Part shown: one piece after another, positions 4,263 to 28,264 of the stretch
Position numbering within the stretch: position 1 is the first letter of the stretch
How the letters are laid out: each line of letters begins with the position of its first letter
From: Streptomyces halstedii
GTDB taxonomy: Bacteria; Actinomycetota; Actinomycetes; Streptomycetales; Streptomycetaceae
Direction: 5' to 3'
DNA length: 64,000 nucleotides
Assembly: GCA_000720535.1 (NCBI GenBank)
Contig: JOAZ01000003.1
Coordinates: 308,743-372,742, forward strand
Notes under the pieces: model-generated
Told to the model about the DNA's origin: nothing
Seen by the model: the letters and a program-made list of their open reading frames with translations, nothing else
The model's database searches: none
Program-made: the position numbers and the translations under genes

Positions 4263-4280
4263 GGTCCCGCTGACCGGGAG
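4263..4280. promoter_or_regulatory. candidate steroid-regulon operator before fadD17
   Basis: On the minus strand this reads CTCCCGGTCAGCGGGACC. It matches imperfectly palindromic elements before kshA (10607), fadA5 (10088) and hsaB/hsaD (20503, 20573). It sits in the 238-bp gap between the SDR gene and the fadD17-like gene, the only sizeable gap in this operon, so an internal promoter under the shared regulator is plausible. No coding sequence is supported in 4084-4313. Confidence 0.4.
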
Positions 4281-4313
4281 GGGCGGGGCCGGGCGGGCCG
4301 GGTCGCGCGGCGG

Positions 4314-5075
4314 TCAGCCGAAGTTGGCCTGGCCGCCGTCGAGCGGGACGGTGGCGCCCGTCAGATACCGGGCGTCCGGGCCGCACAGCATCACGACGGC
4401 CCGTCCGATGTCCCGCTCGCAGTCACCGACGTACCCCAGCGGGATGGACGCGGCGAACTCGGCGGCCTCCTCGGGGTGGGCGTCCTGCCACCGGGCGTAG
4501 GCCGGTGACACGGCGTGCGGGGCGATCGCGTTGACCCGGATGCCGTCGCGGCCCCACTCGTCGGCGGCGGCCCGGGTCAGCGAGCGCAGTGCGGACTTGG
4601 CGGCCGCGTACGCCCCGTACGTGCTCAGGTCCCAGCGTTCCATGGCGGAGGTGACCAGGTTGATGATCACGCCCCCGCCGTTCTCCCTCAGATACGGGTG
4701 CGCGGCCTTCATGAAGGCGAACGCCGCGAACGGGCCGCTGTCGAAGCCCCTGCGGAACTGTTCGTCGCTCAGCGACAGCAGGGGCCCGTAGCACCCGCTG
4801 TAGGCGTTGTTGACCAGGATGTCGATCCCGCCGAAGCGGGCGGCGACGTCCTCCACGACGGCCGGGACACCCGCCGTGTCGAGCACGTCGAAGACGAACG
4901 GCTCGGCCCGCGCGCCCCGTTCGCGCAGCAGCTCGCAGGTCGCCACGAGTTTCCGCTCGGTACGCCCGAGGACGGCGACGGAGGCACCCTCGGAGGCGAG
5001 GGCCAGGGCGATGCCCTGGCCGACCCCCTGGCCCGCGCCGCTGATGACCGCGGTCCTGCCGTCGAAGTGCCCCAT
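4314..5075 (-). CDS. short-chain dehydrogenase/reductase
   Basis: 253 aa classical SDR, NAD(P)H-dependent, cytosolic. The Rossmann glycine motif is GAGQGVGQG near residue 13, NNAYSG follows strand 4, and the catalytic set is Ser in LVTSAMER plus Y-A-A-A-K in TYGAYAAAKSAL. The ATG at 5075 has AGAGGGA 5 nt upstream. Within the side-chain operon a dehydrogenase is needed between hydration (ChsH3-like) and thiolysis (FadA5), so a beta-hydroxyacyl-CoA dehydrogenase role is possible; oxidation of a ring hydroxyl is an equally open alternative. I do not assign it to a named mycobacterial enzyme. Confidence 0.85.
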   Translation of the reverse strand: MGHFDGRTAVISGAGQGVGQGIALALASEGASVAVLGRTERKLVATCELLRERGARAEPFVFDVLDTAGVPAVVEDVAARFGGIDILVNNAYSGCYGPLLSLSDEQFRRGFDSGPFAAFAFMKAAHPYLRENGGGVIINLVTSAMERWDLSTYGAYAAAKSALRSLTRAAADEWGRDGIRVNAIAPHAVSPAYARWQDAHPEEAAEFAASIPLGYVGDCERDIGRAVVMLCGPDARYLTGATVPLDGGQANFG

Positions 5076-5089
5076 CGAATCCCTCTCCC

Positions 5090-5737
5090 TCAACTCGGCC
5101 TGGGTAGTTGCTTGTTGATGAACAGCCCCGCCGCGGTGACACAGACGCGGTCCCCGGCCCGGATCTCCCCGGCCGTCCGGATCCGGGAACCGTCCACCGA
5201 GACCTGGCGGCCGGTGACGGTCAGCGGTTCGAACAACGGGGTGGGCCGCAGGTAGCGCAGGGTCAGCTCGGCCGTCATCCCGGAGGTTCCGGCCCAGTGG
5301 TTGGCCACGCCCAGGGTGTGGTCGAGGAGCAACGCCGAGACACCGCCGTGCACATGGCCGGGCGGCCCCTGGTAGGGCAGGTCGAGGGTGACCACGCCTT
5401 CGACGGCGCCCTCCTCGGTGCCGTACAGGCGCAGCGGCGGTGCGAGGGCGTTCTCCGGACCGGTGACGGGGTCGTGACGGGTGACGCCCTCGCCGCGCCA
5501 CATCTCGGCCAGGCGTTCGCTCACCGGGGGCGCGCCCTCGGTGAGCCGGACGGCGACGGCGTCGAGCTGTGCGGCGACGGCGTCCAGGTCGGCGCCGGTG
5601 CCGTCACCGGCCCGCAGCAGGGCGGTGACCAGTCGGCGGGCGGCGGCCACGGCCGCGTCGACACCGTCCTTGTGTTCCTCGGCGACCAGGCGGGGGCCCG
5701 CGGGCGCCGGGGTGTTCTCGGGGGCGGGGACGGTCAC
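5090..5737 (-). CDS. PaaI-type hotdog thioesterase
   Basis: 215 aa. The C-terminal two thirds is a single hotdog domain with the PaaI/4HBT pattern GPPGHVHGGVSALLLDHTLG, in which the HGG and following acidic residue form the usual active-site region. The GTG at 5737 overlaps the stop of the chsH3-like gene (GTGA), so the two are coupled. Such thioesterases release CoA from stalled or dead-end intermediates; placement in the side-chain beta-oxidation operon suggests CoA recycling from steroid or short-chain thioesters. The N-terminal 75 residues are helical, Ala-rich and not recognised. Confidence 0.8.
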   Translation of the reverse strand: MTVPAPENTPAPAGPRLVAEEHKDGVDAAVAAARRLVTALLRAGDGTGADLDAVAAQLDAVAVRLTEGAPPVSERLAEMWRGEGVTRHDPVTGPENALAPPLRLYGTEEGAVEGVVTLDLPYQGPPGHVHGGVSALLLDHTLGVANHWAGTSGMTAELTLRYLRPTPLFEPLTVTGRQVSVDGSRIRTAGEIRAGDRVCVTAAGLFINKQLPRPS

Positions 5738-6630
5738 GACGCCACCACCGTCGCCGTCGCGTGGGTGAGCACGGGCGCGCCGTCGCGTTCGGGGCAGGCC
5801 GTGTGCAGCACGAGGCGTTCGGTGCCCTCACCGGCGGGTCCCGTACGCCATACGGAGGTGGTGAGGGACTCACCGGGGACGAGGGGTCCGGCGAAGCGCG
5901 CGTCGAGGCCGGTGAGGCGGGTGACGTCGCCGTCCAGGACGCCGTCGACGAGGGCCTTGCCGACCAGGCCGTACGAAGCCAGCCCGTGCAGGATCGGCCG
6001 GTCGAACCCGGCGGCGCGGGCGAACGCCGGATCGGCGTGCAGCGGGTTCAGATCGCCGTTGAGCCGGTACCACAGGGCCTGTTGGGGTGCGGTGACGGAG
6101 GTGAGGACCGTGTCGGCGGGGCGGTCCGGCGGGGTCACCCGCTCGTCCTCCGGGCCGGGGTCCTGGCTGAAGCCGCCCTCGCCACGCGCCCAGACGCGGG
6201 TGGTGGTGGTCCACAGCGCCTGGCCGTCGGGTCCGGTGGCCGTGGACTCCAGGACGACGAGGGCGGCCCTGCCCTTGTCCCAGACCCCGGCGACGCGGGA
6301 GCGGAGCGTGGCGGTGCCGGACGCCGGGAGGGGCCGGTGGACGCGGAGACCCTGGCCGGCGTGGAGGAGGGCGCGCAGGTCGACGTCGATGCCGGGCAGG
6401 TGGAGACCGGGTTCGGCCGTCTCACCCGAGGAGATCCCGGAGCCGGCCACCAGGGCGAAGGTGGGCAGCACCGTGAGGCCCCGCTCATAGGTCAGGGGCA
6501 GTTCGGGGCCGGTGGCCGGGTCGGCTCCGGCGCCCAGGCTCAGGTGGTAGAGCAGGACGTCGCGCGTGCTCCAGCGGATCTCGCGGACCGACGGGTCCGC
6601 GGTCAGCGCCTTGTCGCGGTCGATGGGCAT
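5734..6630 (-). CDS. chsH3: MaoC-type 2-enoyl-CoA hydratase (ChsH3/Rv3538-like)
   Basis: 298 aa double-hotdog hydratase. The C-terminal domain carries the hydratase-2 motif around YRLNGDLNPLHADPAFARAA (Asp and His catalytic), followed by FDRPILHGLASYGLVGKAL. The N-terminal pseudo-domain begins with IRWSTRDVLLYHLSLGAGAD. The overall pattern fits Rv3538 (ChsH3), which hydrates the enoyl-CoA formed by FadE34 on a five-carbon steroid side chain. The ATG at 6630 lies 2 nt after the stop of the fadE34-like gene, and the next gene overlaps by 4 bp. Confidence 0.87.
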   Translation of the reverse strand: MPIDRDKALTADPSVREIRWSTRDVLLYHLSLGAGADPATGPELPLTYERGLTVLPTFALVAGSGISSGETAEPGLHLPGIDVDLRALLHAGQGLRVHRPLPASGTATLRSRVAGVWDKGRAALVVLESTATGPDGQALWTTTTRVWARGEGGFSQDPGPEDERVTPPDRPADTVLTSVTAPQQALWYRLNGDLNPLHADPAFARAAGFDRPILHGLASYGLVGKALVDGVLDGDVTRLTGLDARFAGPLVPGESLTTSVWRTGPAGEGTERLVLHTACPERDGAPVLTHATATVVAS

Positions 6631-6632
6631 GG

Positions 6633-8828
6633 TCAGCCTCTCTCGGTGGGCTCGGGGTCGCGGGGCAGGCCGAGCATGCGTTCGCCGATGATGTTCAGCT
6701 GGACCTCCGTGGTGCCGCCGGCGATGGACAGGCAACGGGAGTTGAGGAACATCCAGACGGCGTCGTGGCGTGCGCCCTCGCCGGTGAGCGCGGCGGTCCC
6801 CTGCCACTCCACGCAGGTCTCCCAGACGCGTTGCTGGTGTTCGACCCCGAGCAGCTTGGCGACGGAGGCCTCGGCGCCGGGCTGCTGCCCGGAGACGCTC
6901 CGCAGGGTGGTGCGCAGGGCGAGCACGGCACCCGTCTGGGCGTCGCAGAGGTGGCCGCCGAGGGTGGTGAGCCGCTCGTCGTCGAGGGCGCCGCGGGCGG
7001 CGGCGATCTCCAGCAGGGCCTCGGCACCGGAGCCGACCGAGTCGTGCGAGAGGGCGACGCGTTCGTTGGCGAGGGTCGTACGGGCGAGCTTCCAGCCGTC
7101 ACCGGGGGCGGCGACGAGCAGTTCGTCGGGGATGAACACCTCGTCCAGGAAGACCTCGTTGAACTCGGCCTCTCCGGTGATCTGGCGCAGGGGCCGGATC
7201 TCGATGCCGGGGCTGGTCATGTCGAGGAGGAAGTAGGAGATGCCCCGGTGCTTGGGTACGGCGGTGTCGGTGCGGGCGAGCAGGACGCCCCAGTGGGCGT
7301 CGTGGGCCATGGAGGTCCACACCTTCTGCCCGGTGACCAGCCAGCCGCCGTCCGTCTTCACCGCGCGGGTGCTGAGGCCCGCCAGGTCCGATCCGGCGCC
7401 CGGTTCGCTGAACAGCTGGCACCAGACGAGGTCGCCGCGCAGGCTCGGCGCGAGGAACCGCTCCCGCTGGGCGGAGTCCCCGTGGGCGATGAGCGTGGGG
7501 ACCACCCAGCCGCCGATGACCATGTCGACGGGGGTGAGGCCGGCCGCCCCCAGTTCCTCGGCGATGACGAGCTGGGTCACCGGGTCGGCCCCCTTGCCCC
7601 AGGGGCCCGGCAGGTGCGGTGCGGTGTAGCCGTGGTCGGCGAGGTGGGTGCGGCGTTCCGTGCCCTCCAGGGCGGCCGCCTCCCGCAGTTCGCCGCGGAT
7701 CCGCTCGCGTACGGCCTCGGCCTCGGGCGGGAGTTCGACCCCGAGGGTGCGGCGGGTGCCGTCCAGGGCGAGCCGGGCGACGCGGCGGCGCCAGGCACCG
7801 GCCGGTCCGAGGGTGATCCGGAGGGTGTGGGCGCGGCGCAGCGCGAGGTGCGCGTCGTGCTCCCAGGTGAAGCCGATGCCGCCGAGCACCTGGACGCAGT
7901 CCTTCGCCACCGCGAACGCGGCGTCCACGCCGACCGCTCCGGCGACGGCGGCGGCCAGCGAGGCCTCCCGGGGGTCCGTGGCACCGTCCGGGCCGGCCGC
8001 GCGGGCGGCGTCCCAGGCACAGGCACGGGCCTGCTCGGCCTGGGCGAGCATGCGGGCGCAGCGGTGCTTGACGCCCTGGAACTGGCCGATACGGCGGCCG
8101 AACTGCTCCCTGACACGGGCGTAGGCGGCGGCCGTGGCCACGCAGCGGTCGGCGAGGCCGGAGGCTTCGGCGGCGAACAGGACCGCGGCGAGGTCCAGGG
8201 GCGTCCGCGGGTCCAGGTCCAGCAGGCCGGCGGTCGGGACGGGCACCGAGCGGGCGGTGACGTGGGAGGAGCGGCGGGTGAGGTCGTGGCTGCGGACGTC
8301 GGTGGTCTCGACGGCGGCGCGGGGCAGCACCAGCCAGGTGGTGCGGCCGTCGTCGTCGGCGGGAAGGACGAACACGTCCGCGAGGTGCCCGCCGACGACG
8401 AGTTCGCTGGTCCCGGTCACCGTGGCCGTGCCGTCGTCGGCGCGGTCCAGGGTGAGGGTGCCGGGGGCGAGTCCGACCGCGCCGAGGGCGGTGCCCGCGG
8501 CGAGCGCGGCGAGGTGTCCGCGGTGTCCCGCGGTGTGCAGCACCGCGGAGGCGAGCGTCGTCGGCAGGAACGGCCCGGGGGCCACCGCTCGGCCCAGTTC
8601 CTCGGTGACGACGGCGAGTTCGACGAGGCCGTACCCCGCGCCGCCCGCCTCCTCCGGGAGGTGGAGTCCGAGGAGTCCCTGTGCGGCGAGACCGCCCCAG
8701 TGGGCGGGGAGGGTCTCCTTGTCCGCGTCGGCGGCCGCCCGCAGGGTGTCCTCGGTGATGTGCCGGTCGGCGAAGGCGCGCACGGCGTCGCGCAGGTCGC
8801 GGTGTTCCTGGGTGAGTCCGATGGTCAT
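6633..8828 (-). CDS. fadE34: double-length acyl-CoA dehydrogenase (FadE34/ChsE3-like)
   Basis: 731 aa, about twice the usual acyl-CoA dehydrogenase length, with two fused dehydrogenase-like halves. The first (1-370) contains REQFGRRIGQFQGVKHR and QVLGGIGFTWEHDAHL; the second (370-731) contains LFSEPGAGSDLAGLSTRAVK, KVWTSMAHDAHWGVLLAR and the C-terminal IAGGTTEVQLNIIGERML. This arrangement is characteristic of FadE34/ChsE3, which dehydrogenates C24 steroid-CoA in the first side-chain cycle. Gene order fadA5-fadE34-chsH3 supplies three of the four steps of that cycle. The ATG at 8828 is 8 nt after the fadA5 stop. Confidence 0.88.
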   Translation of the reverse strand: MTIGLTQEHRDLRDAVRAFADRHITEDTLRAAADADKETLPAHWGGLAAQGLLGLHLPEEAGGAGYGLVELAVVTEELGRAVAPGPFLPTTLASAVLHTAGHRGHLAALAAGTALGAVGLAPGTLTLDRADDGTATVTGTSELVVGGHLADVFVLPADDDGRTTWLVLPRAAVETTDVRSHDLTRRSSHVTARSVPVPTAGLLDLDPRTPLDLAAVLFAAEASGLADRCVATAAAYARVREQFGRRIGQFQGVKHRCARMLAQAEQARACAWDAARAAGPDGATDPREASLAAAVAGAVGVDAAFAVAKDCVQVLGGIGFTWEHDAHLALRRAHTLRITLGPAGAWRRRVARLALDGTRRTLGVELPPEAEAVRERIRGELREAAALEGTERRTHLADHGYTAPHLPGPWGKGADPVTQLVIAEELGAAGLTPVDMVIGGWVVPTLIAHGDSAQRERFLAPSLRGDLVWCQLFSEPGAGSDLAGLSTRAVKTDGGWLVTGQKVWTSMAHDAHWGVLLARTDTAVPKHRGISYFLLDMTSPGIEIRPLRQITGEAEFNEVFLDEVFIPDELLVAAPGDGWKLARTTLANERVALSHDSVGSGAEALLEIAAARGALDDERLTTLGGHLCDAQTGAVLALRTTLRSVSGQQPGAEASVAKLLGVEHQQRVWETCVEWQGTAALTGEGARHDAVWMFLNSRCLSIAGGTTEVQLNIIGERMLGLPRDPEPTERG

Positions 8829-8836
8829 GGCGCCCT

Positions 8837-10651
<1,815 letters not shown>

Positions 10652-10704
10652 CTACCGTCCACGGACCGTGAGACCACGCGTCCTGACGAGGGGATGAGAG
10701 CAAC

Positions 10705-11862
10705 GTGAGCGCAGTCGAGTCAGCACCCGACGAGGTCAGGGCCATCGAGGCCGGTGCGGCACCCACCCGCTTCGCGCGCGGCTGGCACTGCCTGGGCCTC
10801 GCGGAGAAGTACAAGGACGGCGCACCGCACGCGGTGCGGGCCTTCGGGCAGAAGCTCGTGGTGTTCCAGGCGGGCGACGGCACCCTCAACGTGCTGGACG
10901 CCTACTGCCGGCACATAGGCGGCGACCTCTCCCAGGGCACCGTCAAGGGCGACCAGGTCGCGTGTCCGTTCCACGACTGGCGCTGGGGCGGCGACGGACG
11001 CTGCAAGCAGATCCCGTACTCCAAGCGGGTCCCGCTGCGGGCCCGTACGGCGTCCTGGCCGACGCTGGACCAGGACGGGATGCTCTTCGTCTGGAACGAC
11101 CCGGAGGGCGGTCCCCCGCCCGCCGACGTGACGATCCCCCGCATCGAGGGGGCGACGAGCGAGGAGTGGACCGACTGGCTCTGGTACGAGACGGTCGTGG
11201 ACGCCAACTGCCGCGAAGTCGTGGACAACGTGGTGGACATGGCCCACTTCTTCTACGTCCACTACTCCTTCCCGACGTACTTCAAGAACGTCTTCGAGGG
11301 CCACACCGCCACGCAGTACATGCGCGGCACCGGCCGCCCCGACGCCCGCCCCCAGGAGCAGGACGGCAAGCCCAGGACCTCCGGCAGCGACTCGGTGGCC
11401 TCCTACCACGGGCCGTCCTTCATGATCGACGACCTCACCTACCACTACGACACCGGTGACGTGCAGTCGGTCCTGATCAACTGTCACTATCCCGTGGACG
11501 CGAACCGCTTCGTGCTCCAGTACGGCATCGTCGTCAAGCGCTCACCCACGCTGTCCGGTGAGGCGGCCGAGGAACTCGCGGCGGGCATGGGGCAGTTCAT
11601 CAAGCTGGGTTTCGAGCAGGACATCGAGATCTGGAAGAACAAGTCGCGCATCGACAATCCGCTGCTCTGCGAGGAGGACGGGCCGGTCTACCAACTACGC
11701 CGCTGGTACGAGCAGTTCTACGTGGACGTGGCCGACGTTACACCGGAGATGACCGACCGCTTCGAGTTCGAGCTGGACACCACGCGTCCCGTCGAGGCGT
11801 GGCAGAAGGAGGTCGAGGCGAACCTCGCCCGCAAGGCCGCCGCCGAAGGCCGGCCGGTCTGA
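10705..11862 (+). CDS. kshA: 3-ketosteroid 9-alpha-hydroxylase, oxygenase component KshA
   Basis: 385 aa Rieske non-heme iron oxygenase. The Rieske cluster ligands are C68-x-H70 and C87-x2-H90 (YCRHIG, CPFHDW). The mononuclear iron site is in NVVDMAHFFYVH with H181 and H186; an Asp near FEQDIEIW completes the facial triad. With KshB it 9-alpha-hydroxylates androstadienedione, which together with KstD activity opens ring B. The GTG at 10705 is preceded by a GAGGGGATGAGAG tract. The last base of its stop is the first base of the next ATG, coupling it to the small Cys protein. Confidence 0.95.
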   Translation: MSAVESAPDEVRAIEAGAAPTRFARGWHCLGLAEKYKDGAPHAVRAFGQKLVVFQAGDGTLNVLDAYCRHIGGDLSQGTVKGDQVACPFHDWRWGGDGRCKQIPYSKRVPLRARTASWPTLDQDGMLFVWNDPEGGPPPADVTIPRIEGATSEEWTDWLWYETVVDANCREVVDNVVDMAHFFYVHYSFPTYFKNVFEGHTATQYMRGTGRPDARPQEQDGKPRTSGSDSVASYHGPSFMIDDLTYHYDTGDVQSVLINCHYPVDANRFVLQYGIVVKRSPTLSGEAAEELAAGMGQFIKLGFEQDIEIWKNKSRIDNPLLCEEDGPVYQLRRWYEQFYVDVADVTPEMTDRFEFELDTTRPVEAWQKEVEANLARKAAAEGRPV

Positions 11863-12131
11863 TGCGTCTCGACAACCGGCTGGCCGACGGCCCTCCGATG
11901 CGCCCTCTGGCCTGCGAGCGGTGCGCGGCACAGGTCCTGGTGCGCAAGAGCAGCTGGCAGCAGACGAGCGTGCAGTGGGACGGACGGGCCACGGCGGCGT
12001 GCGCGGAACGCGGCCCGTCCGGCGGTGCCTTCGAGGGGTGCGGGGCGCTGCGCGACACGATCCGGGAGGCGGCGCTGCGGGGCGCGCTCCCCCTCGCGGA
12101 CGGGACGGGGGACGTGGCTCCACCCCCCTGA
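11862..12131 (+). CDS. small four-cysteine protein coupled to KshA
   Basis: 89 aa. The ATG overlaps the kshA TGA by one base (TGATG), so translation depends on kshA. Four cysteines at C18, C21, C47 and C60 (C-x2-C-x25-C-x12-C) suggest a metal site or Fe-S cluster, but the spacing matches no ferredoxin I know. The segment MRPLACERCAAQVLVRKSSWQQ and the helix ALRDTIREAALRGALPL look like a real folded protein. I do not recognise the family. Coupling implies a role in KshA assembly, electron transfer or regulation; this is inference. Confidence 0.7.
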   Translation: MRLDNRLADGPPMRPLACERCAAQVLVRKSSWQQTSVQWDGRATAACAERGPSGGAFEGCGALRDTIREAALRGALPLADGTGDVAPPP

Positions 12132-12178
12132 CGACGGAGCCCGTCCGGACCGTCGGGTTCTCCTGGTCCTGGTCCTGG

Positions 12179-12205
12179 GTCCTGGGTCCGCCCGGGGCCC
12201 AGGAC
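12179..12205. terminator. hairpin between convergent kshA unit and hsaC
   Basis: GTCCTGGGTCC (12179-12189) pairs with GGGCCCAGGAC (12195-12205) across a 5-nt loop, with one G-T wobble. It sits in the 221-bp gap where the rightward kshA unit meets the leftward hsaC end, so a bidirectional terminator is likely. Nothing else is seen in 12132-12352. Confidence 0.5.
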
Positions 12206-12352
12206 CGTCCGCGTTCAGCCGCCGCCCGCCCGGCCCCCCTCGGGCCGGCCGCCGCGAAGGGCCGCGAACGGTCCGCGAGCGGGCCAGAGCGAGCGCGGGT
12301 CCTTGCGGGGGTACGGGCCCCGGCGGAGCTCATCCGGTCCGTCCGGCGGGGC

Positions 12353-13282
12353 TCATCCTGTCTTGTCCGGCGGGGCGAAGGCGGCGAGCGGTTCGGACCC
12401 GGACCAGTCGTGGCCCCAGTAGCTGTCGGCGGTGATCTCCTCGGCGGTGTAGTGCCGTTCGTCCACCCGCATGCCCTCGCAGCCGTACTCGATGTCCCAG
12501 CCACCGGGCGCGCGTACGTAGAAGGAGACCATCTTGTCGTTGGTGTGCCGCCCCAGGGTGGAGGAGAGCGAGAAGCCACGCTCGCCGACGTTGTCGAGGG
12601 CCCGGCCGACCGCGTCCAGGGTGTCCACCTCCACCATCAGGTGCACCAGTCCGGGTTCGCCGGCGTGCGGGGCGGGGCAGACGGCGAGGCTGTGGTGGCG
12701 TTCGTTGACGCCCATGAAGCGGACCCGGCGGGGCGGGGCGTCGGGCGACTGGCCACCGAGCCTGATCCCCCCGCGCGGCAGGAAGCCGAGCACCTCGGTG
12801 TAGAAGGCGACCGTGTCGTCCATGGCGGTGGTGGGCAGGACGACGTGCCCCATGCCCTGACCGCCGGTGACGAACCGCTGGCCGAGCCCGGTCAGGACCG
12901 GGCTGTGGTCGAGGATCGGTGCGAAGAAGACCTCGACGGGCACTCCGGCCGGGTCGAGGAAGGTGATGGCCTCCTCGACGCCCCGGTCGTCCGCCTCCTT
13001 CCGGTCGAGCACCTTCACCACCGTGCCGGACGCCTCGACGGCGCGGCCCACGGCGGCGAGCGCGAACTGGTCGCGTACCTCCCAGCCGACCGAGAGCACC
13101 GTGTCGCTGTCACCGGGCAGGACGACGAGGCGGGCCCGGCGTTCGTCCATGCGCAGATAGAGGCCCTCGGGGTCGGGTCCCGTCCCTTCGGCGAAACCGA
13201 GTGCGTCCACGGTGAGTTCGCGCCAGCGGGAGATGTCCCGGGTCTGGACCCGGAGATATCCGAGTCCGCGGATCTGTGTCAT
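12353..13282 (-). CDS. hsaC: extradiol 3,4-DHSA dioxygenase HsaC
   Basis: 309 aa two-module vicinal-oxygen-chelate extradiol dioxygenase, which cleaves the catechol ring A of 3,4-DHSA to 4,9-DSHA. The iron ligands of the family are present as H146 (GMGHVVL), H214 (GLVHLMVEV) and E265 (WDIEYG). The conserved STLGRHTNDKMVSFYVRAP block precedes the Glu. The ATG at 13282 has AGAGAGGA upstream. It is 129 bp downstream of hsaA, separated by a direct repeat. Confidence 0.95.
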   Translation of the reverse strand: MTQIRGLGYLRVQTRDISRWRELTVDALGFAEGTGPDPEGLYLRMDERRARLVVLPGDSDTVLSVGWEVRDQFALAAVGRAVEASGTVVKVLDRKEADDRGVEEAITFLDPAGVPVEVFFAPILDHSPVLTGLGQRFVTGGQGMGHVVLPTTAMDDTVAFYTEVLGFLPRGGIRLGGQSPDAPPRRVRFMGVNERHHSLAVCPAPHAGEPGLVHLMVEVDTLDAVGRALDNVGERGFSLSSTLGRHTNDKMVSFYVRAPGGWDIEYGCEGMRVDERHYTAEEITADSYWGHDWSGSEPLAAFAPPDKTG

Positions 13283-13324
13283 GACGGTGTTCCTCTCTGG
13301 TCCGGTCGGCTACGTCCGGACGTC

Positions 13325-13386
13325 GGGGTTCCGGGCGTCAGTGGTTCCGGGTGGTGTCTGGGGTTCCGGGCGTCAGTGGTTCCGGG
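13325..13386. repeat. 27-bp direct repeat between hsaA and hsaC
   Basis: Two identical 27-nt copies (13325-13351 and 13360-13386), period 35, containing GGTTCCGGGCGTCAGTGG. They fill much of the 129-bp hsaA-hsaC gap. No hairpin long enough for a terminator is obvious. This looks like a local duplication in a noncoding spacer. Confidence 0.8.
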
Positions 13387-13411
13387 TCTCCGGATGTCCG
13401 GGTGTCCGGGC

Positions 13412-14596
13412 TCAGATCATCGAGCGCATCGGGCCCTGCGGCGGCTCCACGCCGATCTCCGTCAGGGCGGAGGCGTGGAAGACGGCCCCGGGCACATGGA
13501 TGGCATGGGTCAGGCCGGTGTGCGCGTCGCGCCAGAACCGCTGGATCGGGTTGTCCATGCGCATGGCGTTCCCGCCGGAGCGGGCCACGACCTCGTCGAC
13601 CGCGCGGACCGCCCGCCAGGCGGCGGCGGCCTGGGTGCGCCGGCCGACGGCGCGCCGTTCGAAGGTGATCTCCCGGCCGGCGGCGACCATGTCGTACATC
13701 TGGCTGATGTTGTCCAGGAGCGCCGAGCGGGAGGCGGCGATCTCGGCGGCGGCGTCGCTGACGGCGTACAGGACGTACGGGTCGTCCCGCACGGCCTGGC
13801 CGGTGATCTGCACACGGTCGGCCTGGTAGGCGAGGTGATGTGCGAGGGTGCCCTCGCACATGCCGATGACGGCGGCGGTGATGCCGAGCGGGAAGGCGGC
13901 GGAGAACGGCAGCCGGTAGGCGGGGTTGGTCAGGCCGGACTCGGCGGCGAGGGAGCCGTCGACCACCTTGGCGTACTCGATCACCCGGTGGGCGGGCACG
14001 AAGGCGTCCTTGACGACGACGTCCTTGCTGCCGGTGCCACGCAGCCCTACGACGTCCCAGGAATCGTCCACGATCTCGTAGTCGGCGCGGGGCAGGATGA
14101 CGTGGACGGACCGCGGAGGGCTGAGCCGGCTGCCGTCGGCGTCGGTGAGGAATCCGCCGAGGAAGATCCACCGGCAGTGGTCGGTGCCGGAGGAGAACTG
14201 CCAGCGGCCGTTGAAGACGTATCCGCCGTCGACGGGCCTCAGCAGGCCCATCGGCGCGTACGGGGAGGCGATCCAGGTGTCGTGGTCCTCGCCCCAGACC
14301 TCCTCCTGGACCCGGGGATCGGCCATCGCCATCTCCCAGGGGTGGACACCGACGACCCCGGCGACCCAGCCGGTCGCCCCGTCCAGGGAGGCGATCCTCA
14401 TGACGGTCTCGGCGAACTCGCGCGGGTGCAGTTCGAGGCCGCCGTACGCCTTGGGCTGGAGCATGCGGATCGCACCGGCGTCCCGCAGGATCGTGGCGGC
14501 CCGGTCGTCGAGACGGCCGAGCGCCTCGCTGGCCGGGCCGAGAGCGCGGATCTCCTCGGCGTGTGCTTCGACCGCTTCGCGTACCGGATGGGACAT
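13412..14596 (-). CDS. hsaA: 3-HSA hydroxylase, oxygenase component HsaA
   Basis: 394 aa flavin-dependent monooxygenase of the acyl-CoA-dehydrogenase-fold group (HpaH/HsaA). With reduced flavin from HsaB it converts 3-HSA to the catechol 3,4-DHSA. Family segments are LQPKAYGGLELHPREFAE, WQFSSGTDHCRWIFLGG, SWDVVGLRGTGSKDVVVKD and the C-terminal IQRFWRDAHTGLTHAIHVPG. Length and order of motifs match HsaA. The ATG at 14596 follows hsaF by 8 nt with GGGAAGTGAG upstream. Confidence 0.94.
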   Translation of the reverse strand: MSHPVREAVEAHAEEIRALGPASEALGRLDDRAATILRDAGAIRMLQPKAYGGLELHPREFAETVMRIASLDGATGWVAGVVGVHPWEMAMADPRVQEEVWGEDHDTWIASPYAPMGLLRPVDGGYVFNGRWQFSSGTDHCRWIFLGGFLTDADGSRLSPPRSVHVILPRADYEIVDDSWDVVGLRGTGSKDVVVKDAFVPAHRVIEYAKVVDGSLAAESGLTNPAYRLPFSAAFPLGITAAVIGMCEGTLAHHLAYQADRVQITGQAVRDDPYVLYAVSDAAAEIAASRSALLDNISQMYDMVAAGREITFERRAVGRRTQAAAAWRAVRAVDEVVARSGGNAMRMDNPIQRFWRDAHTGLTHAIHVPGAVFHASALTEIGVEPPQGPMRSMI

Positions 14597-14604
14597 GGCT
14601 TCAC

Positions 14605-15666
14605 TCACTTCCCGGCGGGGTTCTGGGTGCTGGCGGACCGGTCCCTCGCCGCGAGGGCGACCGCGATCTCGATGAGCTGGTCCTCCTGGCCGCCGACGAG
14701 CTCGCGGCGGCCGGCCTCCATGAGGATCTCGGCGCCGGACACCTGGTAGGTGGCGGCCTGGCGGGCGGCGTGCTTCAGGAAGCTGGAGTAGACACCGGCG
14801 TACCCCATCGTCAGGGAGAGCCGGTCGAGGAGGCATTCGCCGTCCATGACGGGCCGTACGACGTCCTCGGCCGCGTCGATGATCTTCAGTACGTCGATGC
14901 CGGTGCGGATGCCGAGCTTCTCGGCGACGGCGGCGAATCCCTCGACGGGCGTGTTGCCTGCGCCCGCGCCGAAGCGCCGGGTCGACCCGTCGATCTGCCG
15001 GGCTCCCGCGCGGACCGCGAGGACGGAGTTGGCGACGCCCAGCCCCAGGTTCTCGTGACCGTGGAAGCCCACCTGGGCGTCGTCGCCGAGCTCGGCGACC
15101 AGTGCCCCGACGCGGTCGCTCGTCTGCTCCATGACGAGGGCCCCCGCGGAGTCGACCACGTACACGCACTGGCAGCCGGCGTCGGCCATGACCCGGGCCT
15201 GCCGGGCCAGCTCCTCCGGCGGCCGGCTGTGCGACATCATCAGGAACCCGACGGTCTCCAGGCCGAGTTCGCGGGCGAGCCCGAAGTGCTGGACGGAGAT
15301 GTCGGCCTCGGTGCAGTGGGTGGCGATACGGCAGACCGCGGCACCGTTGTCGGCGGCCTCGCGGATGTCGTCCTGAAGGCCGAGACCGGGCAGCATCAGG
15401 AAGGCGATCTTCGCCCGGCGCGCGGTCTTCACCGCGGCCTTGATGAGTTCCTGTTCCGGGGTGTGGCTGAAGCCGTAGTTGAAGGAGGATCCGCCGAGGC
15501 CGTCACCGTGGGTGACCTCGATGACGGGGACTCCGGCGTCGTCGAGGGCGGCGACGACGGAGGTGACGTGGTCGACGGTGAACTGGTGCTGCTTGGCGTG
15601 CGATCCGTCCCGCAGGGACGAGTCGGTGACGCGGATGTCCAGCTCGGAGCTGTAGGGCGTGGGCAT
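14605..15666 (-). CDS. hsaF: 4-hydroxy-2-oxoacid aldolase HsaF
   Basis: 353 aa DRE-TIM metallolyase. It cleaves 4-hydroxy-2-oxohexanoate to pyruvate and propionaldehyde and channels the aldehyde to HsaG. Signature residues are in [16 protein letters not shown] (catalytic Arg and Asp metal ligand) and [16 protein letters not shown] (metal-binding HxH). The ATG at 15666 follows hsaG by 27 nt. HsaF-HsaG pairs form a channelling complex, consistent with adjacency. Confidence 0.94.
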
Positions 15667-15693
15667 GACTCGTGTACTCCTCGGTGACGGGGG

Positions 15694-16602
15694 TCAGACG
15701 GCCGCGCGACGGGCGGTGATCCGCCGGGCGAAGCCCTCGCCGACCTCGGTGGCGGCGGCGGTCATGATGTCGAGGTTCCCGGAGTACGGCGGCAGGAAGT
15801 CGCCGGCGCCCTCCACCTCGATGAACACCGCGACCCGGGCGAGCCCGCCGCTGACCGCGGTCGGCCCGTCGAACTGCGGTTCGGTGCGCAGCCGGTAGCC
15901 GGGGACGTACGCGGCCACACGGGCGACGGTCTCGTGGACGGAGGCCGTGACCGCGTCCCGGTCGACGTCGGCGGGGACGGCGCAGAAGACGGTGTCCTGC
16001 ATCAGCATCGGCGGCTCGGCCGGGTTGAGGATGATGATGGCCTTGCCCCGGGCGGCGCCGCCGATCGTCTCGATGCCCCGGCCGGTCGTGCGGGTGAACT
16101 CGTCGATGTTGGCGCGGGTTCCGGGCCCCGCGGACGGTGAGGCGACGCTGGCGACGATCTCCGCGTAGGGCACCTCGGTGACCTGCGAGACCGCGTGCAC
16201 GACCGGGATGGTGGCCTGTCCCCCGCAGGTGATGAGGGAGACGTTCGGCGCGTCGAGGTGGTCGCCGAGGTTGACGGCGGGCACGACGGCCGGGCCGATC
16301 GCGGCGGGCGTCAGGTCGATGGTCTGGATGCCGAGCCGGGCGTACTCGGGGGCGTTGGCCCGGTGGACGGAGGCGGAGGTGGCCTCGAAGACCAGGTCCG
16401 GCCGCTCGTCGCCGGCCAGCAGGGCTTCGACACCGTCGGCGCTCGTGAGCAGGCCGTGGTCGGCGGCGCGCTTGAGGCCGGGGCTCTGCTCGTCGATGCC
16501 GATCATCCAGCGTGGTTCGATGGCCTGGGAGCGCAGGAGCTTGTACATCAGGTCGGTGCCGATGTTGCCGGATCCGACGATCGCGGCGGTCGCCTTGGTC
16601 AC
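15694..16602 (-). CDS. hsaG: acylating propionaldehyde/acetaldehyde dehydrogenase HsaG
   Basis: 302 aa. It oxidises the aldehyde from HsaF to propionyl- or acetyl-CoA with NAD+. The Rossmann motif [11 protein letters not shown] is at residues 9-19, and the catalytic Cys is C126 in [11 protein letters not shown]. The conserved [15 protein letters not shown] follows. The start is a GTG at 16602 with GAGG about 10 nt upstream, next to a GGTTCGAACC palindrome (16603-16612). hsaE, the preceding hydratase gene, is not in the window. Confidence 0.94.
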
Positions 16603-16659
16603 GGTTCGAACCTCATCCGGGTCGAGTGGGTACGGGGAAACGGGTGCGGGAGGAACGGG

Positions 16660-16806
16660 TCAGCCGTCGTGGGTGACTTCAGGTGGCCGGCCAGCCGTCG
16701 TGGGTGAGCCTCGGGGCGGCTGATCAGCCGTCACAGGTGACACCCAGGCGGCTGACGTGCCGTCACAGACGGCTCCCCAGGGGCTGGTCAGCCGTCGTAG
16801 GTGACC
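16660..16806. repeat. degenerate copies of the kshB 3' end
   Basis: The last 18 nt of kshB (complement of 16788-16806, reading TCAGCCGTCGTAGGTGAC on the plus strand) recur nearly exactly at 16660-16677, 16692-16708 and 16724-16740, with a partial copy near 16758. Spacing is about 32 bp. The copies all carry the same stop codon context, so it looks as if the gene terminus was duplicated into the 185-bp kshB-hsaG gap. No gene is supported there. Confidence 0.75.
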
Positions 16807-17828
16807 TTCACGCGCTCGCTGAGCGGCCGCGCCTGGCAGGCGAGGATCAGGCCGTCGGCGAGGTCCTGGGCGTCGAGCACCTCGTTGCGCTCCATGTCCA
16901 CCTCGCCCTCGGTGAGCACGCAGGCGCAGGCACTGCAGGCCCCTTCCCGGCAGGAGTACGGGGCGTCCACCCCGGCGGCGAGCAACGCGTCGAGCAGCGG
17001 CGCGTCCCGCGGCCAGTCGACGGTGCGGCTCACCCCGTCCAGCCGCACCTCGACGGTGCTGACCGGCCCGGCGGTTCCGGACCCCGGCTCCGGCGCGGGC
17101 TCGCGCTCGGCGAACGGGTCGCCGGTCAGCGAGGTGAAGCGCTCCACGGTGATCCGGTCCGGAGGCATGCCCAGAGCGGTGAGCGCGCCGGTGGCGAGGT
17201 CCATGAAGGGGCCGGGCCCGCAGACGAAGGCGTCCCGGGCTGTGTACGGCGCCAGAAGGGCCCGCAGCCCGGCTCCGGTGGGCCGGTCCTGGACCGACTC
17301 CAGCCAGTGCACGACGGTCAGCCGTCCGGCGTACTCCCGTGCCAGGGAGGCAAGTTCGTCGCGGAAGATCACCGACTGTTCGTCCCGGTTGGCGTAGAGG
17401 AGGGTGATCGCCCCGGTCCCGGCGTGCAGGGCGGAGGCGAGGATCGACATCACCGGGGTGATGCCGCTGCCCGCGGCCAGGAGCAGGAAGTCGCCGTCCA
17501 GTGAGGCGGGGGTGAACGTGCCGGCGGGCCGCAGCACTTCCAGGGTGTCGCCCTCGGTCACGTGGTCGCAGATCCAGTGGGAGGCGTAACCCCCTCGGAC
17601 GCGTTTGACGGTGACCTTCAGATGCTCGTCGCGCGCCGGGGAACTGCACAGCGAGTAGCAGCGGGCGGCTCCGCCGGGGCGTTCGGAGGGCACCCGGACG
17701 GTGAGGAACTGCCCCGGCCGGTAGGTGAACCGGGTCCGGTCCGCCTCGACGGGCTCCAGGACCAGCGAGTGCGCGTCGTCCGTCTCCCGGATCACTTTGA
17801 CGACGCGTACGGTCAGCGGGCGCGTCAT
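16788..17828 (-). CDS. kshB: 3-ketosteroid 9-alpha-hydroxylase, reductase component KshB
   Basis: 346 aa ferredoxin-NAD reductase. Order: flavin domain (RCYSLCSSPARDEHLKVTVK), NAD domain (LLAAGSGITPVMSI, FVCGPGPFMDLATGAL), then a C-terminal plant-type 2Fe-2S domain with Cys ligands in YSCREGACSACACVL and a final Cys in LILACQARP. It passes electrons from NADH to the Rieske centre of KshA. The ATG at 17828 overlaps the kstD stop (ATGA). A linker rich in Pro/Glu (EREPAPEPGSG) joins the last two domains. Confidence 0.95.
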   Translation of the reverse strand: MTRPLTVRVVKVIRETDDAHSLVLEPVEADRTRFTYRPGQFLTVRVPSERPGGAARCYSLCSSPARDEHLKVTVKRVRGGYASHWICDHVTEGDTLEVLRPAGTFTPASLDGDFLLLAAGSGITPVMSILASALHAGTGAITLLYANRDEQSVIFRDELASLAREYAGRLTVVHWLESVQDRPTGAGLRALLAPYTARDAFVCGPGPFMDLATGALTALGMPPDRITVERFTSLTGDPFAEREPAPEPGSGTAGPVSTVEVRLDGVSRTVDWPRDAPLLDALLAAGVDAPYSCREGACSACACVLTEGEVDMERNEVLDAQDLADGLILACQARPLSERVKVTYDG

Positions 17829-19510
17829 GCCCGGTCCCCCGGGTCCGTACGGGCCGTGGCGGCGTGCCGGGCGGCGATGTGGCCGAAGACGATGGAGGGG
17901 CCGATGGTGGCGCCCGGTCCGGCGTACTCGCCGCCCATCACGGAGGCGGAGGTGTTGCCCGTCGCGTACAGGCCGGCGATGACCGAGCCGTCCTCGCGCA
18001 GCACCCGGCTGTGCTCGTCGCAGACGAGGCCGCCCTTGGTGCCGAGGTCGCCGACCTCGATGCGTACGGCGTAGAAGGGGGCCTTGTCGATCACGTCGAG
18101 GTTGGGGTTCTTCAGGGTCGGGTCGCCGTAGTAGCGGTCGTAGGCGCTGTCCCCCCGGCCGAAGTCCGTGTCCTTGCCGGTCCGGGCGAACCCGTTGAAC
18201 CGTCGTACGGTGTCGCCGAGCGCGTCGGCGGGGACACCGATGGCGCGTGCGAGTTCGCCGATGCTGTCCGCCCGGTGCACGGTGCCGTTCTCGTAGAAGC
18301 CCTCGGGGAACGGCATTCCGGGGAGGACCTGCGCGAACGGGTAGCGGGCGCGGGCCTTGGCGTCCATCACGAACCACGCCGGGACGTGGCCGCCGTCGAG
18401 CTGGTCGTGGACGAAGTTGACGTAGGGCGACGACTCGTTGGTGAAGCGCCTGCCGTTCCCGGAGACGATCACCGAGGGCGGGATGCACCGCTCGGAGACC
18501 AGCGGGATCACCGGTCCGGCGGGGTGGCGCACGGACGGCATCCACCAGGCGTCGTCCATGAAGTCGAGGGCGGCGCCGAGCGCTTGACCGGCGGTGATGC
18601 CGTCGCCGACGTTCTCGACGGCCCCGGCACTGTGGTTGCCCCGGCCGCCCTTCGGCAGATACTTCTCGCGCATCTCCTGGTTGTGGTCGAAGCCGCCGGT
18701 CGCCAGGAGCACCCCGTGCCGGGCGCGGACGCGGACGGTGCGGCCGTCCCGCTCCACGGTGACGCCGCTCACGGTGCCGTCGGCGCCGACGACGAGTCCG
18801 GTCATCGGGCTGCGCAGCCACAGGGGTGTCCCGGCGTCCTTCAGCGCCATGCGCATCCGCGCCACCAGGGCGCGTCCGCCGGTCGCCATGTGGCGGCGGC
18901 GGACCGTGTTGGAAAAGACCCGCCAGGCGGCGACGACCGAGGCCCAGCGTCCGCGCCAGGTCCGCTTGACCATGGCGAGGTCCCGGTAGTCCTTCGCGGT
19001 GATCCACAGTCCGAGCGGGCCCTTGAGGCTGTTGGGCCGCTGGTACTTCTCGTCCTCGCCCAGCTCGCGGGTGTCGAAGGGCAGCGCCTCGACCGAGCGG
19101 CCGAGCGGGCGTCCACCGTCGTACTCGGGGTGGTAGTCGGCGTAGCCCTTGACCCAGAAGAACCGCATCCACCGGCTCCGGCCGAGCAGTTCCATCGCTG
19201 CCGGCCCCTGGGCGATGTACGCGTCCAGCCGGGCGTCCGGCACCCGGCCCTCGGTGAGCCGGTCGAGGTAGCGGCGGACGGAGGCGGGGCTGTCGTCGTG
19301 GCCCGCGGCCCGCAGGGTGGGGTTGTTGGGGATCCAGATGCCGCCGCCGGAGATGGCGGTGGTGCCGCCGTACTTCGCCCCCTTCTCGACCACGAGGGCG
19401 GACAGACCGCTGTCGGCCGCGGTCAGCGCGGCGGTCATCCCGCCACCGCCGCTGCCGACGACGACGAAGTCGAACTCCTCGTCCCAGGTCTCCTGGGCGC
19501 CGGCGCTCAC
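17825..19510 (-). CDS. kstD: 3-ketosteroid delta-1-dehydrogenase KstD
   Basis: 561 aa FAD enzyme that introduces the C1-C2 double bond in ring A. The N-terminal dinucleotide fold is FVVVGSGGGGMTAALTAADS; the second FAD-binding part and active-site loop are LYATGNTSASVMGGEYAGPG with the catalytic Tyr of GGEYAGPG. GGTTAISGGGIWIP near residue 48 is typical of the family. The start is a GTG at 19510 overlapping the hsaD stop (GTGA). Central gene of the hsaD-kstD-kshB run. Confidence 0.94.
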   Translation of the reverse strand: MSAGAQETWDEEFDFVVVGSGGGGMTAALTAADSGLSALVVEKGAKYGGTTAISGGGIWIPNNPTLRAAGHDDSPASVRRYLDRLTEGRVPDARLDAYIAQGPAAMELLGRSRWMRFFWVKGYADYHPEYDGGRPLGRSVEALPFDTRELGEDEKYQRPNSLKGPLGLWITAKDYRDLAMVKRTWRGRWASVVAAWRVFSNTVRRRHMATGGRALVARMRMALKDAGTPLWLRSPMTGLVVGADGTVSGVTVERDGRTVRVRARHGVLLATGGFDHNQEMREKYLPKGGRGNHSAGAVENVGDGITAGQALGAALDFMDDAWWMPSVRHPAGPVIPLVSERCIPPSVIVSGNGRRFTNESSPYVNFVHDQLDGGHVPAWFVMDAKARARYPFAQVLPGMPFPEGFYENGTVHRADSIGELARAIGVPADALGDTVRRFNGFARTGKDTDFGRGDSAYDRYYGDPTLKNPNLDVIDKAPFYAVRIEVGDLGTKGGLVCDEHSRVLREDGSVIAGLYATGNTSASVMGGEYAGPGATIGPSIVFGHIAARHAATARTDPGDRA

Positions 19511-20376
19511 GCCGCGTCCCGGCGGGTGAGGAAGGCGAGGACCGCGCTCTCCCAGGCGGCCTTCCGCTCGATCATCACCCAGTGCCCGCAGTCGGGGAAG
19601 ACGTGCAGTTCCGCGTCCGGGATGGTGCGCATCGGCAGGATCGACATGTCGAGGGGGCTGACCCGGTCGTCGCGCCCCCAGGTGAGCAGCGTCTTCGCCC
19701 GGAGGCGGTGCAGCGTCGCCCAGTACGGTGCCTCGTCGGAGGCGGCCGCGGCGGCGGTACGGGCGGCGAAGGCCTCGCTGCCGTACATCCGGCGGGCGGC
19801 GGCGAGGGTGTCCGGGTCGGTGGCCTGCTCCCACCTCTCCTCGATCAGTTCCTCGGTCACCAGGGACCGGTCGTGGACCATGGAGTTCAGCCAGCGCACC
19901 AGCTTTTCGCGTGAGGGGGCGTCGGTGAACTCGGTGAGCAGGTTGATGCCTTCGCCGGGGCCGGGGCTGAACAGGTTCGTGCCGATGCCGCCGATCGTCA
20001 CGAGCCGGCGGACCCGGTCGGGGTGGGCGAGCGCGAACCGGGTGCCGACGATGCCGCCCATCGAGTTGCCGATGACGTCCACCTGGCGCAGCCCGAGTCC
20101 GTCCAGGAAGCGGGTCACGGCCGAGCCGGCGGTGACCATGGGGTGGCCGTCGGCGGGGTCGCTGACTCCGAACCCCGGGAACTCCAGGACGAGACAGCGG
20201 AAGTGGGCGGCGAACGTGGCGAGGTTGTCACGGTAGTTGCGCCAGCCCGTGACGCCGGGGCCGGATCCGTGCAACAGCAGCAGGGGAGGTCCGTCGCCGG
20301 CCTCGTGGTAGCGCAGTACGCCCTGTTCGGTCGGGAGTTCACGCCGTGTGGAGGCGTGGGTCAGCTCCGTCATCAT
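19507..20376 (-). CDS. hsaD: 4,9-DSHA hydrolase HsaD
   Basis: 289 aa alpha/beta hydrolase (meta-cleavage product hydrolase). It splits 4,9-DSHA to HIP-type indane propionate and 2-hydroxyhexa-2,4-dienoate. Visible features are the oxyanion-hole LLLLHGSGPGVTGW, nucleophile elbow GNSMGG, a WGRDDRVSPLD Asp region, and the catalytic His in CGHWVMIE. Two adjacent ATGs (20376, 20373) follow AGGGCAGGG; the first is chosen. It begins the leftward ring-degradation operon and is divergent from hsaB. Confidence 0.93.
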   Translation of the reverse strand: MMTELTHASTRRELPTEQGVLRYHEAGDGPPLLLLHGSGPGVTGWRNYRDNLATFAAHFRCLVLEFPGFGVSDPADGHPMVTAGSAVTRFLDGLGLRQVDVIGNSMGGIVGTRFALAHPDRVRRLVTIGGIGTNLFSPGPGEGINLLTEFTDAPSREKLVRWLNSMVHDRSLVTEELIEERWEQATDPDTLAAARRMYGSEAFAARTAAAAASDEAPYWATLHRLRAKTLLTWGRDDRVSPLDMSILPMRTIPDAELHVFPDCGHWVMIERKAAWESAVLAFLTRRDAA

Positions 20377-20502
20377 CCCTGCCCTCGATTGAACTCGGTG
20401 GTCCGTGGATCTGGTGTCCGGCGGTCCGGCGGCGGGGTGGCCCCGGGCCCCGCTCGCTCGGTTCCAGGACGGTAGCCACGGCCGTCCGGAGCCCGCGGCG
20501 GG

Positions 20503-20592
20503 TGTCTCGGTCACCGGGACAGGCGCGTTCGCGGGGGTACGGGTGCGGGCCGCCGCCCCGCGCCCCGGCACCGTTCCACTCATCGGGAACGG
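20503..20592. promoter_or_regulatory. two candidate steroid-regulon operators between hsaD and hsaB
   Basis: GTCTCGGTCACCGGGAC (20503-20519) and GTTCCACTCATCGGGAACGG (20573-20592) lie in the 305-bp divergent promoter region. The second has 7-bp arms CCGTTCC/GGAACGG. Spacing suits one site per direction: about 90 bp upstream of hsaB and about 130 bp upstream of hsaD. They share the pattern seen before kshA, fadA5 and fadD17. Confidence 0.45.
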
Positions 20593-20681
20593 CGCGCCCC
20601 GGGCGGCCGGCCGGTGTCCTACCTTCGGCCCCTGCCCGGTCCCGGGCATACCACCGCACCGTCCCCGTCGAGGTGAAACCG

Positions 20682-21251
20682 ATGACCGCAGAGTCGCTGT
20701 CCGCGCCGGAGGCCGTTGAGGAGACCGCCCCGACGCCCCCGCACATGCGGCGCGCCATGGGGACCTTCGCGTCCGGGGTCACCGTGGTGACGGGGGTCGG
20801 CCGGGACGGCGATCCGGTCGGCTTCGCCTGCCAGTCCTTCGCCTCCGTCTCCCTGGACCCGGCGCTCGTCCTGTTCTGCGCCGATCACCGGGGGCGCGCG
20901 TGGCCGAGGATCAGGGAGTCGGGACGGTTCACGGTGAACGTGCTGGCCGCGGAGCAGACGGATCTCTGCGCCCGCTTCGGCTCCGGCAAGGGCCGCAAGT
21001 ACGAGGATCTGCGCTGGGAGTTGTCCCGGTGGGGTACGCCGTCGCTGCCGGGCGTACTGACCCGCGTGCACGCCGATGTGTACGACGTGCACGGCGCGGG
21101 TGACCACGACGTGGTGCTGGGCCGGGTCCTCGCCCTGGAGACGGTGAGCGACCGGGAGCCGATGCTCTTCTTCCGCGGGGGCTTCGGTGTGGACCGCCGG
21201 CCGGCCGCCCCGGCGCCCGACCCGTGGGGCTGGGGCGACCACTGGGGCTGA
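20682..21251 (+). CDS. hsaB: flavin reductase HsaB
   Basis: 189 aa FMN/FAD-binding split-barrel reductase that supplies reduced flavin to HsaA. Recognised by MRRAMGTFASGVTVVT, DPVGFACQSFASVSLDP, LVLFCADHRG, FTVNVLAAEQTDLCARFGSG and GDHDVVLGRV. The ATG at 20682 is preceded by GAGGTGAA at 8 nt. It is divergent from hsaD, separating the reductase from hsaA, unlike mycobacterial hsaACDB operons. Confidence 0.92.
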   Translation: MTAESLSAPEAVEETAPTPPHMRRAMGTFASGVTVVTGVGRDGDPVGFACQSFASVSLDPALVLFCADHRGRAWPRIRESGRFTVNVLAAEQTDLCARFGSGKGRKYEDLRWELSRWGTPSLPGVLTRVHADVYDVHGAGDHDVVLGRVLALETVSDREPMLFFRGGFGVDRRPAAPAPDPWGWGDHWG

Positions 21252-22301: not shown

Positions 22302-22548
22302 GGGGCCTCCAGTCACAGACTGAAATGAATTCTTGTTTTCCGGAATGTAACAGCGCCCCACGGACCAGGAGAAGACATGTGCACCGGCTCTCTTCCGCCG
22401 CCCGCCCGTGAGGCCGCCCCACTCACCGCCCCACGCGCGCACGTCCGCACCAGGGAGATCCGGAACCGGTACGCACGCGGGCAGGCAGACACGCGGACGA
22501 GCGCACGGCAGAGGGAAGACCCCCGACGCGGTCGCGGTACCAGGCTGC

Positions 22549-23205: not shown

Positions 23206-23230
23206 GGACTCCCCTGCCGGGTTGACGAGT

Positions 23231-23277
23231 TTTACGGCGTAAACATAGCATCGGTCCACCGAGATTTACGATGTAAA
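23231..23277. promoter_or_regulatory. twin TetR operators between tetR and flavodoxin genes
   Basis: TTTACGGCGTAAA (23231-23243) and TTTACGATGTAAA (23265-23277) are 13-bp palindromes 34 bp apart. They are themselves nested in a larger inverted repeat with arms CGAGTTTTAC (23226-23235) and GTAAAACTCG (23273-23282). They lie 26-72 bp upstream of the tetR ATG and about 50-100 bp before the flavodoxin ATG, in a locally AT-rich stretch. Confidence 0.75.
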
Positions 23278-23328
23278 ACTCGGGCCCTGGGCAGGGGCGC
23301 CACACAGCGGCAGGAAAGAGGTTCGCCC

Positions 23329-28248: not shown

Positions 28249-28264
28249 ATCCGGAGCCCACCCG

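Follow-up and report, generated by a model that had tools for sequence, protein, structure and literature searches.

The window analysed here, a 64,000-nucleotide stretch of Streptomyces halstedii DNA (C3:308743-372742 in genome G000, where C3 marks contig coordinates and the genome size is 7.74 Mb), holds part of a steroid catabolism cluster whose operons are split between two palindromic motifs. The first, a 17-bp palindrome of the approximate form GTYCCRSTSASYGGRAC, is already published as Lcin1 and precedes operons of bile-acid catabolism, namely casI, kshA, hsaB/hsaD, kstD/kstR3 and casG/SBP. The second, an AGAAT box with the consensus TAGAATNNATTCTA, occurs chiefly at side-chain thiolase/short-chain dehydrogenase (SDR) operons and at the promoter of an IclR-family regulator gene. 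Judged by their joint occurrence across genomes, two regulators, this IclR protein and the KstR-like TetR protein KstR3, are co-inherited with the cluster. We consider it likely that IclR binds Lcin1 and KstR3 the second motif, and we lean slightly towards a crossed wiring in which iclR and the side-chain operon are under repression by KstR3, and the rigidly placed palindrome serves IclR as the site for switching on kstR3 and the genes of uptake and ring degradation.

Lcin1, TCCCGGT[C/G]ACCGGGA, was predicted upstream of genes that lithocholate induces in Nocardioides simplex VKM Ac-2033D (PMC7593942), and the consensus of the window sites matches it. A first-pass annotation of the window had proposed five copies of the element, all of which are present with the 17-bp cores given in Table 1; it overlooked a sixth, which points left, with the -10 hexamer TACGGT at 10532-10527 (38 bp), toward a partial SDR frame. 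This open frame (10204-10677, minus strand, in the fadA5-kshA interval) has a partial short-chain dehydrogenase match and is perhaps a gene remnant. The copy at 20573, claimed to be the best, reaches 16.6 bits with a weight matrix trained on other genomes, as compared to 21.2 bits for the copy at 10607, the highest-scoring one in the window. Further sites lie to the left of the window: C3:267099 and C3:267181 in the gap that separates casG from a peptide-type ABC operon, C3:273455 before an enoyl-CoA hydratase gene (PRK07938 type), C3:300986 before a FadD3-type ligase gene and C3:302659 between kstD and the TetR gene kstR3. FadD3-type ligases and PRK07938-type enoyl-CoA hydratases are gene types under KstR2 control in mycobacteria.

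How specific is the palindrome for the cluster? The exact pattern GTYCCRSYNRSYGGRAC matches four times in the whole genome, three of these inside the cluster, and with one mismatch 94 genome matches stand against 51 for the reversed control. The looser pattern thus lacks genome-wide specificity. Two mismatches, allowed within the window only, yield 19 matches, whereas shuffles average 10.35 and reach 19 in 2 of 100 cases. Scanning 143 kb of the contig with the matrix gave 11 sites that score 14 bits or better, where 50 approximate shuffles averaged 0.52, although one of these shuffles contained a 21.7-bit site. In related loci totalling 1.56 Mb, exact matches number 33 versus 0-5 for 20 permuted palindromes, and matrix matches 240 versus a mean of 8.8 (maximum 36) for 50 column-permuted matrices.

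When the window is aligned with 10 close relatives, the kshA-promoter sites at 10562 and 10607 are kept amid diverging flanks and the fadA5 site at 10088 is kept with small changes; of eight aligned sequences, one of them the window, five have the casI site at 4264 and three have lost it. A de novo search upstream of the kstR3 genes returned Lcin1 itself, gTcCCgCTcAGcGGgAc, which scores at least 10 bits in 78 of 80 kstR3 loci, among them 21 of the 23 that lack a divergent kstD. At 14 bits, Lcin1 was found upstream of kstD_L4 (54/58; here, as for kstR3, the counts share members with the training set), casG (12/13), SDR_L4 (34/48), thiolase (18/59) and casI (7/18) genes and upstream of none of 46 thioesterase and 34 MaoC genes.

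The second motif marks largely different operons. The de novo search upstream of iclR genes, refined from a seed, led to AAGAATTCATTTCAGT and not to Lcin1, and in the own genome the motif matches, at up to one mismatch, twice only, in the iclR and fadA5 promoters. It precedes all 60 IclR orthologues, a count that overlaps the training set as the matrix was trained on the promoters of these 60; 19 of them carry Lcin1 too. Surveyed across the 80 loci at up to two mismatches, TAGAATNNATTCTA has 90 matches versus 0 for one control palindrome and stands before 31 of 59 thiolase genes, 30 of 48 SDR_L4 genes and 1 of 84 KstR3 genes, and before none of the hsaA (0/68), kshA (0/56) and kstD_L4 (0/58) genes. 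In 31 of 39 iclR promoters a -10 hexamer starts 8-15 bases before the motif. Compared to the KstR box, TAGAATNNATTCTA has equal outer arms and the same 14-bp length, with the inner C/G changed to T/A, and it overlaps the -10 at fadA5. Three Geodermatophilus genomes in which KstR3 is the only KstR-family match retain the second motif at iclR, so that there it is not canonical KstR's motif. Changes of the motif at the Geodermatophilus iclR promoters were set aside, as they are not repeated at a thiolase promoter (L109).

Which regulators accompany these motifs? IclR had been regarded as the only one next to the ring genes; a KstR-like TetR with PF17925, KstR3 (P0003), is encoded beside kstD, 6 kb left of the window, and a second TetR gene lies within it. 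The view of one regulon under a motif unlike the KstR/KstR2 boxes stands in part, and the proposed control by IclR, though plausible, does not cover the whole system, to which a second regulator, KstR3, and a second motif also belong. Against the KstR model NF033703, KstR3 scores 107.2 bits (cut-off 280) and is, by this cut-off, not an orthologue of the cholesterol regulator KstR; another TetR of the genome (C21) scores 189.8 bits. The best solved-chain match of KstR3 is 3bjb, which we take to come from R. jostii RHA1. In a census of 394 genomes of the class (KstR3 at E<=1e-45, IclR at E<=1e-75) KstR3 was found in 12 and IclR in 13, and all 12 KstR3 genomes also have IclR. The IclR query matches every kstR3 genome searched (49/49 and 30/30, best E at most 1e-88; 79 of the 80 loci, L048 left out), and 49 of the 60 IclR neighbourhoods contain an HsaD match. 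In one locus (L007, genome G012) the translation of the KstR3 orthologue appears frameshifted in the DNA-binding domain. At L224, L227 and L230, in other genomes, an IclR paralogue is paired with a following KstR3-like gene of 46-48% identity, preceded by CAGAATTCACTTCAGT with no Lcin1 site adjoining. In the IclR-paralogue loci GTYCC-7/8-GGRAC occurs 6 times versus a shuffled mean of 2.5 and a maximum of 5.

A further property of Lcin1 is its distance to the promoter. With TANNNT as -10 hexamer, distances measured from the palindrome centre and start sites deduced from sequence, 12 of the 14 own-cluster matches of at least 12 bits have a hexamer at 37-40 bp. Among the relatives (237 non-redundant of 371 sites) 159 have it at 37-42 bp, whereas six other 6-bp bins hold 2-14 sites each, and the spacing peaks at 38 bp (81 sites); kstR3 promoters show an offset of 40, 41 or 43 in 25 of 56 cases. 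Between offsets 9 and 34 no column exceeds 0.3 bit in the 73 promoters with offset 38, so that no conserved -35 appears in this interval. On account of the fixed spacing and the lack of a conserved -35, Lcin1 is probably an activator site; its centre, some 38 bp upstream of the -10, would fall at roughly -50.

IclR is preferred as the Lcin1 binder because of the likeness of Lcin1 to IclR group-1 sites, the activator-like distance to the -10 and the different box that goes with KstR-type proteins. The group-1 consensus is GTTYCRYW3RYGRAAC, 17 bp long (PMC8222616); by eye, Lcin1 fits it in arms and length and partly in the A/T centre, which is T-S-A in Lcin1. The recognition helix P-R-S-T-A-H-R of IclR holds Arg28 and His32 (TtgV numbering, alignment by eye), the residues associated with an outer-position G and, weakly, a third-position C, in keeping with the Arg28-G and weak His32-C10 preferences described for the family (PMC8222616). 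For KstR-type proteins, a probe bound by Mycobacterium tuberculosis KstR contains TAGAAC(N2)GTTCTA, partly overlapping a -10 (PMC1995591). Among 20 fetched regions of KstR-like proteins with the helix AGVALGTLYRYFPSK, 18 show TAGAACNNATTCYA upstream of the protein's own gene, with no Lcin1 there; the helix of KstR3, AGVAIGTLYRYFPSK, is nearly the same, and the TAGAAC-type TAGAACAAGTTTCA precedes the C21 TetR gene of the own genome. Co-variation was not used as an argument: in G472, where His32 of IclR is replaced by Tyr, the fourth base is T in 4 of 8 half-sites versus 82 of 650 overall, and G411 (4/10) and G461 (5/12) come close without a change of His32. The TetR encoded in the window was set aside as Lcin1 factor since it has TTTACG/GTAAA repeats of its own upstream (by eye).

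In the preferred model KstR3 would repress both iclR and the side-chain thiolase operon by binding TAGAATNNATTCTA, which closely follows the -10 in the former promoter and overlaps it in the latter. A bile-acid metabolite would free KstR3, IclR would rise and, from Lcin1, activate the ring genes kshA, hsaB and hsaD, casI, the FadD3-type ligase gene, the peptide-type ABC uptake operon and kstR3, and, judged by position, probably kstD and casG as well; the renewed synthesis of KstR3 would close a negative feedback loop.

Several observations weigh against this picture. Coverage by Lcin1 at 14 bits is partial upstream of kshA (26/56) and hsaA (26/68). A -10 at the preferred distance is missing from the own sites C3:267181 (by casG) and C3:270747 and, at 37-42 bp, from 78 of the 237 sites of the relatives; in the kstD-kstR3 interval the site has one facing kstR3 only. 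No box was found in L254 and L255, those two of the 20 fetched KstR-like regions that are nearest to true KstR, and a TAGAAC-type box was found in none of 20 regions of more distant homologues. No clear single-regulator genome turned up among those searched, the only candidate, G502, having a 45% KstR3-like match. Of the 13 IclR-paralogue loci that have no KstR3 nearby, 7 yielded neither motif. Above all, each regulator gene bears the box assigned to the other, Lcin1 at kstR3 and the second motif at iclR, so that ordinary autoregulation would give the reverse assignment and the crossed wiring needs a KstR3 that hardly ever regulates itself.

Under this reverse assignment Lcin1 would be the site from which KstR3 represses the ring genes along with kstR3, and the AGAAT box that from which IclR represses the side-chain operon along with iclR. 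It draws on the near-universal Lcin1 before kstR3, with or without a divergent kstD, and on the box before every iclR gene. The Nocardioides authors, moreover, suggested a KstR3 orthologue as the Lcin1 factor, adding that this 'requires further research' (PMC7593942), and a TetR named KstR3 in Mycolicibacterium neoaurum, possibly an orthologue, represses its own operon (PMC10398937). KstR3 on Lcin1 ranks as a rival and not as the first choice because an IclR match is found in every searched kstR3 genome and because of the KstR-family boxes. Against it, TAGAAC-type boxes accompany KstR-type helices, Lcin1 resembles the IclR group-1 consensus, and its fixed place near -50 would, by general expectation, be odd for a TetR repressor. 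We hold the reverse assignment to be unlikely, though the most serious competitor. Alternatively, IclR alone could bind both motifs through two dimerisation modes (group-1 and group-2 sites) with the targets of KstR3 elsewhere. Three-box sites are described for 32 IclR groups (PMC8222616), and the second motif can be read as a group-2-type box, GAAATGAATTC resembling TGGAAATNATTTCCA of E. coli IclR, which likewise tells against KstR3 on this motif. Two IclR-paralogue loci (L218, L232) hold GTTCCAGTGACATGGAAC next to GAATC-NN-GTTCC, flanked by an SBP-type gene and a kshA paralogue, in a three-box IclR-like layout. As the AGAAT box is nearest to the KstR-family boxes and each motif has operons largely of its own, control by IclR alone seems very improbable. 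Equally improbable is a regulator of Lcin1 encoded away from the cluster, since the motif travels with the kstR3 cluster across genera (records named Streptomyces, Microbispora, Actinomadura, Rhodococcus, Geodermatophilus and others) and exact GTYCCRSTSASYGGRAC occurs 43 times in 31 KstR3 genomes, 19 of these in their ten Streptomyces (reversed control 2), versus 9 times in 31 same-genus genomes without close KstR3 (control 0).

Table 1. Motif copies, cluster genes and regulator genes (window positions unless marked C3)
Feature	Position	Strand	Remarks
Lcin1, casI promoter	4264-4280	minus	-10 TACCGT at 4233-4228 (minus)
Lcin1, fadA5 promoter	10088-10104	minus	one arm degenerate; -10 TAGTTT at 10058-10053, 38 bp from centre
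Lcin1, sixth copy GTCCCACCGACCGGGAC	10562-10578	minus	found by mismatch scan
Lcin1, kshA promoter	10607-10623	plus	-10 TACCGT at 10653-10658
Lcin1, hsaD promoter	20504-20520	minus	-10 TACCGT at 20474-20469
Lcin1 (17/18 bp), hsaB promoter	core 20573-20589, element 20573-20590	plus	-10 TACCTT at 20620-20625
Second motif AGAACCAATTCTAGT, fadA5 promoter	10055-10069	minus	overlaps fadA5 -10
Second motif AAGAATTCATTTCAGT, iclR promoter	22319-22334	minus	directly before start codon, downstream of TACATT hexamer
casI, steroid-22-oyl-CoA synthetase	2428-4083	minus	NF052587, 979.2 bits, cut-off 900
fadA5-type steroid thiolase	8837-9997	minus	first gene of side-chain operon; NF005889, 673.8 bits, cut-off 515
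kshA, 3-ketosteroid 9-alpha-hydroxylase oxygenase	10705-11862	plus	PF19298; no NCBIfam match at 1e-60
hsaD	19507-20373	minus	NF045632, 284.4 bits, below cut-off 400
hsaB-type flavin reductase	20682-21251	plus	PF01613 and context; no NCBIfam match at 1e-60
IclR-family regulator	21405-22301	minus	298 amino acids, recognition helix PRSTAHR
TetR (TetR_C_1)	22549-23259		divergent from flavodoxin-like frame (by eye), region 22549-23839
KstR3 (P0003), KstR-like TetR	C3:302751-303362		PF17925; 6 kb left of window, beside kstD

The pathway is of the bile-acid type by its gene content, because CasI and CasG both exceed curated cut-offs; the gene that had been named fadD17 is casI. CasG is encoded at C3:267284, left of the window in the same cluster, which reaches about 42 kb or more leftward beyond the window. 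HsaA proper lies at C3:297080-298246, and a second HsaA-like oxygenase (380 bits, below the cut-off of 450) at 13412-15169 on the minus strand. To the right of the cluster there is an Mrr-type restriction endonuclease domain at 28199-28996.

Knowledge of how bile-acid degradation is regulated is limited according to a review (PMC8399759). Literature searches found no earlier description of the fixed activator-like spacing or of the division of operons between two motifs. If the proposed wiring is true, the likely Lcin1 factor is named and Lcin1 is shown to be an activator site, two short boxes predict which genes of an actinobacterial bile-acid cluster obey which regulator, and control of the pathway, also in steroid-making strains, becomes directly testable. 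The result would be an activator-driven steroid regulon with negative feedback, unlike the repressor-only logic of KstR and KstR2.

How does the system compare to known ones? The cholate (cas) cluster of R. jostii RHA1, reportedly described with kstR3 by Mohn et al. in 2012 (cited in PMC7593942), is said to share CasG, CasI, a ro05818-type thioesterase (PF20859) and a KstR3-type TetR; the host differs, being a Streptomyces in the present case. In N. simplex the same palindrome precedes bile-acid genes including kshA and an hsaEGF-type operon, with KstR-type sites in the same cluster; there Lcin1 is a candidate motif for which the available text gives no -10 spacing, and the word IclR is absent from the main text (PMC7593942). 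With the GTT-11-AAC sites of IclR-family proteins Lcin1 shares the operator length, the odd centre and the GTYC/GRAC arms, and the IclR protein the helix residues Arg28 and His32; Lcin1 differs in its T-S-A centre, theirs being A/T only, and in the steroid context, the word steroid being absent from that paper (PMC8222616). The mycobacterial KstR/KstR2 systems likewise serve steroid catabolism with TetR repressors, and the second motif resembles the KstR box TAGAAC(N2)GTTCTA, whereas the module described here adds to it a conserved IclR protein and an odd-centred 17-bp palindrome placed about 38 bp before the -10 (PMC1995591, PMC3068626).

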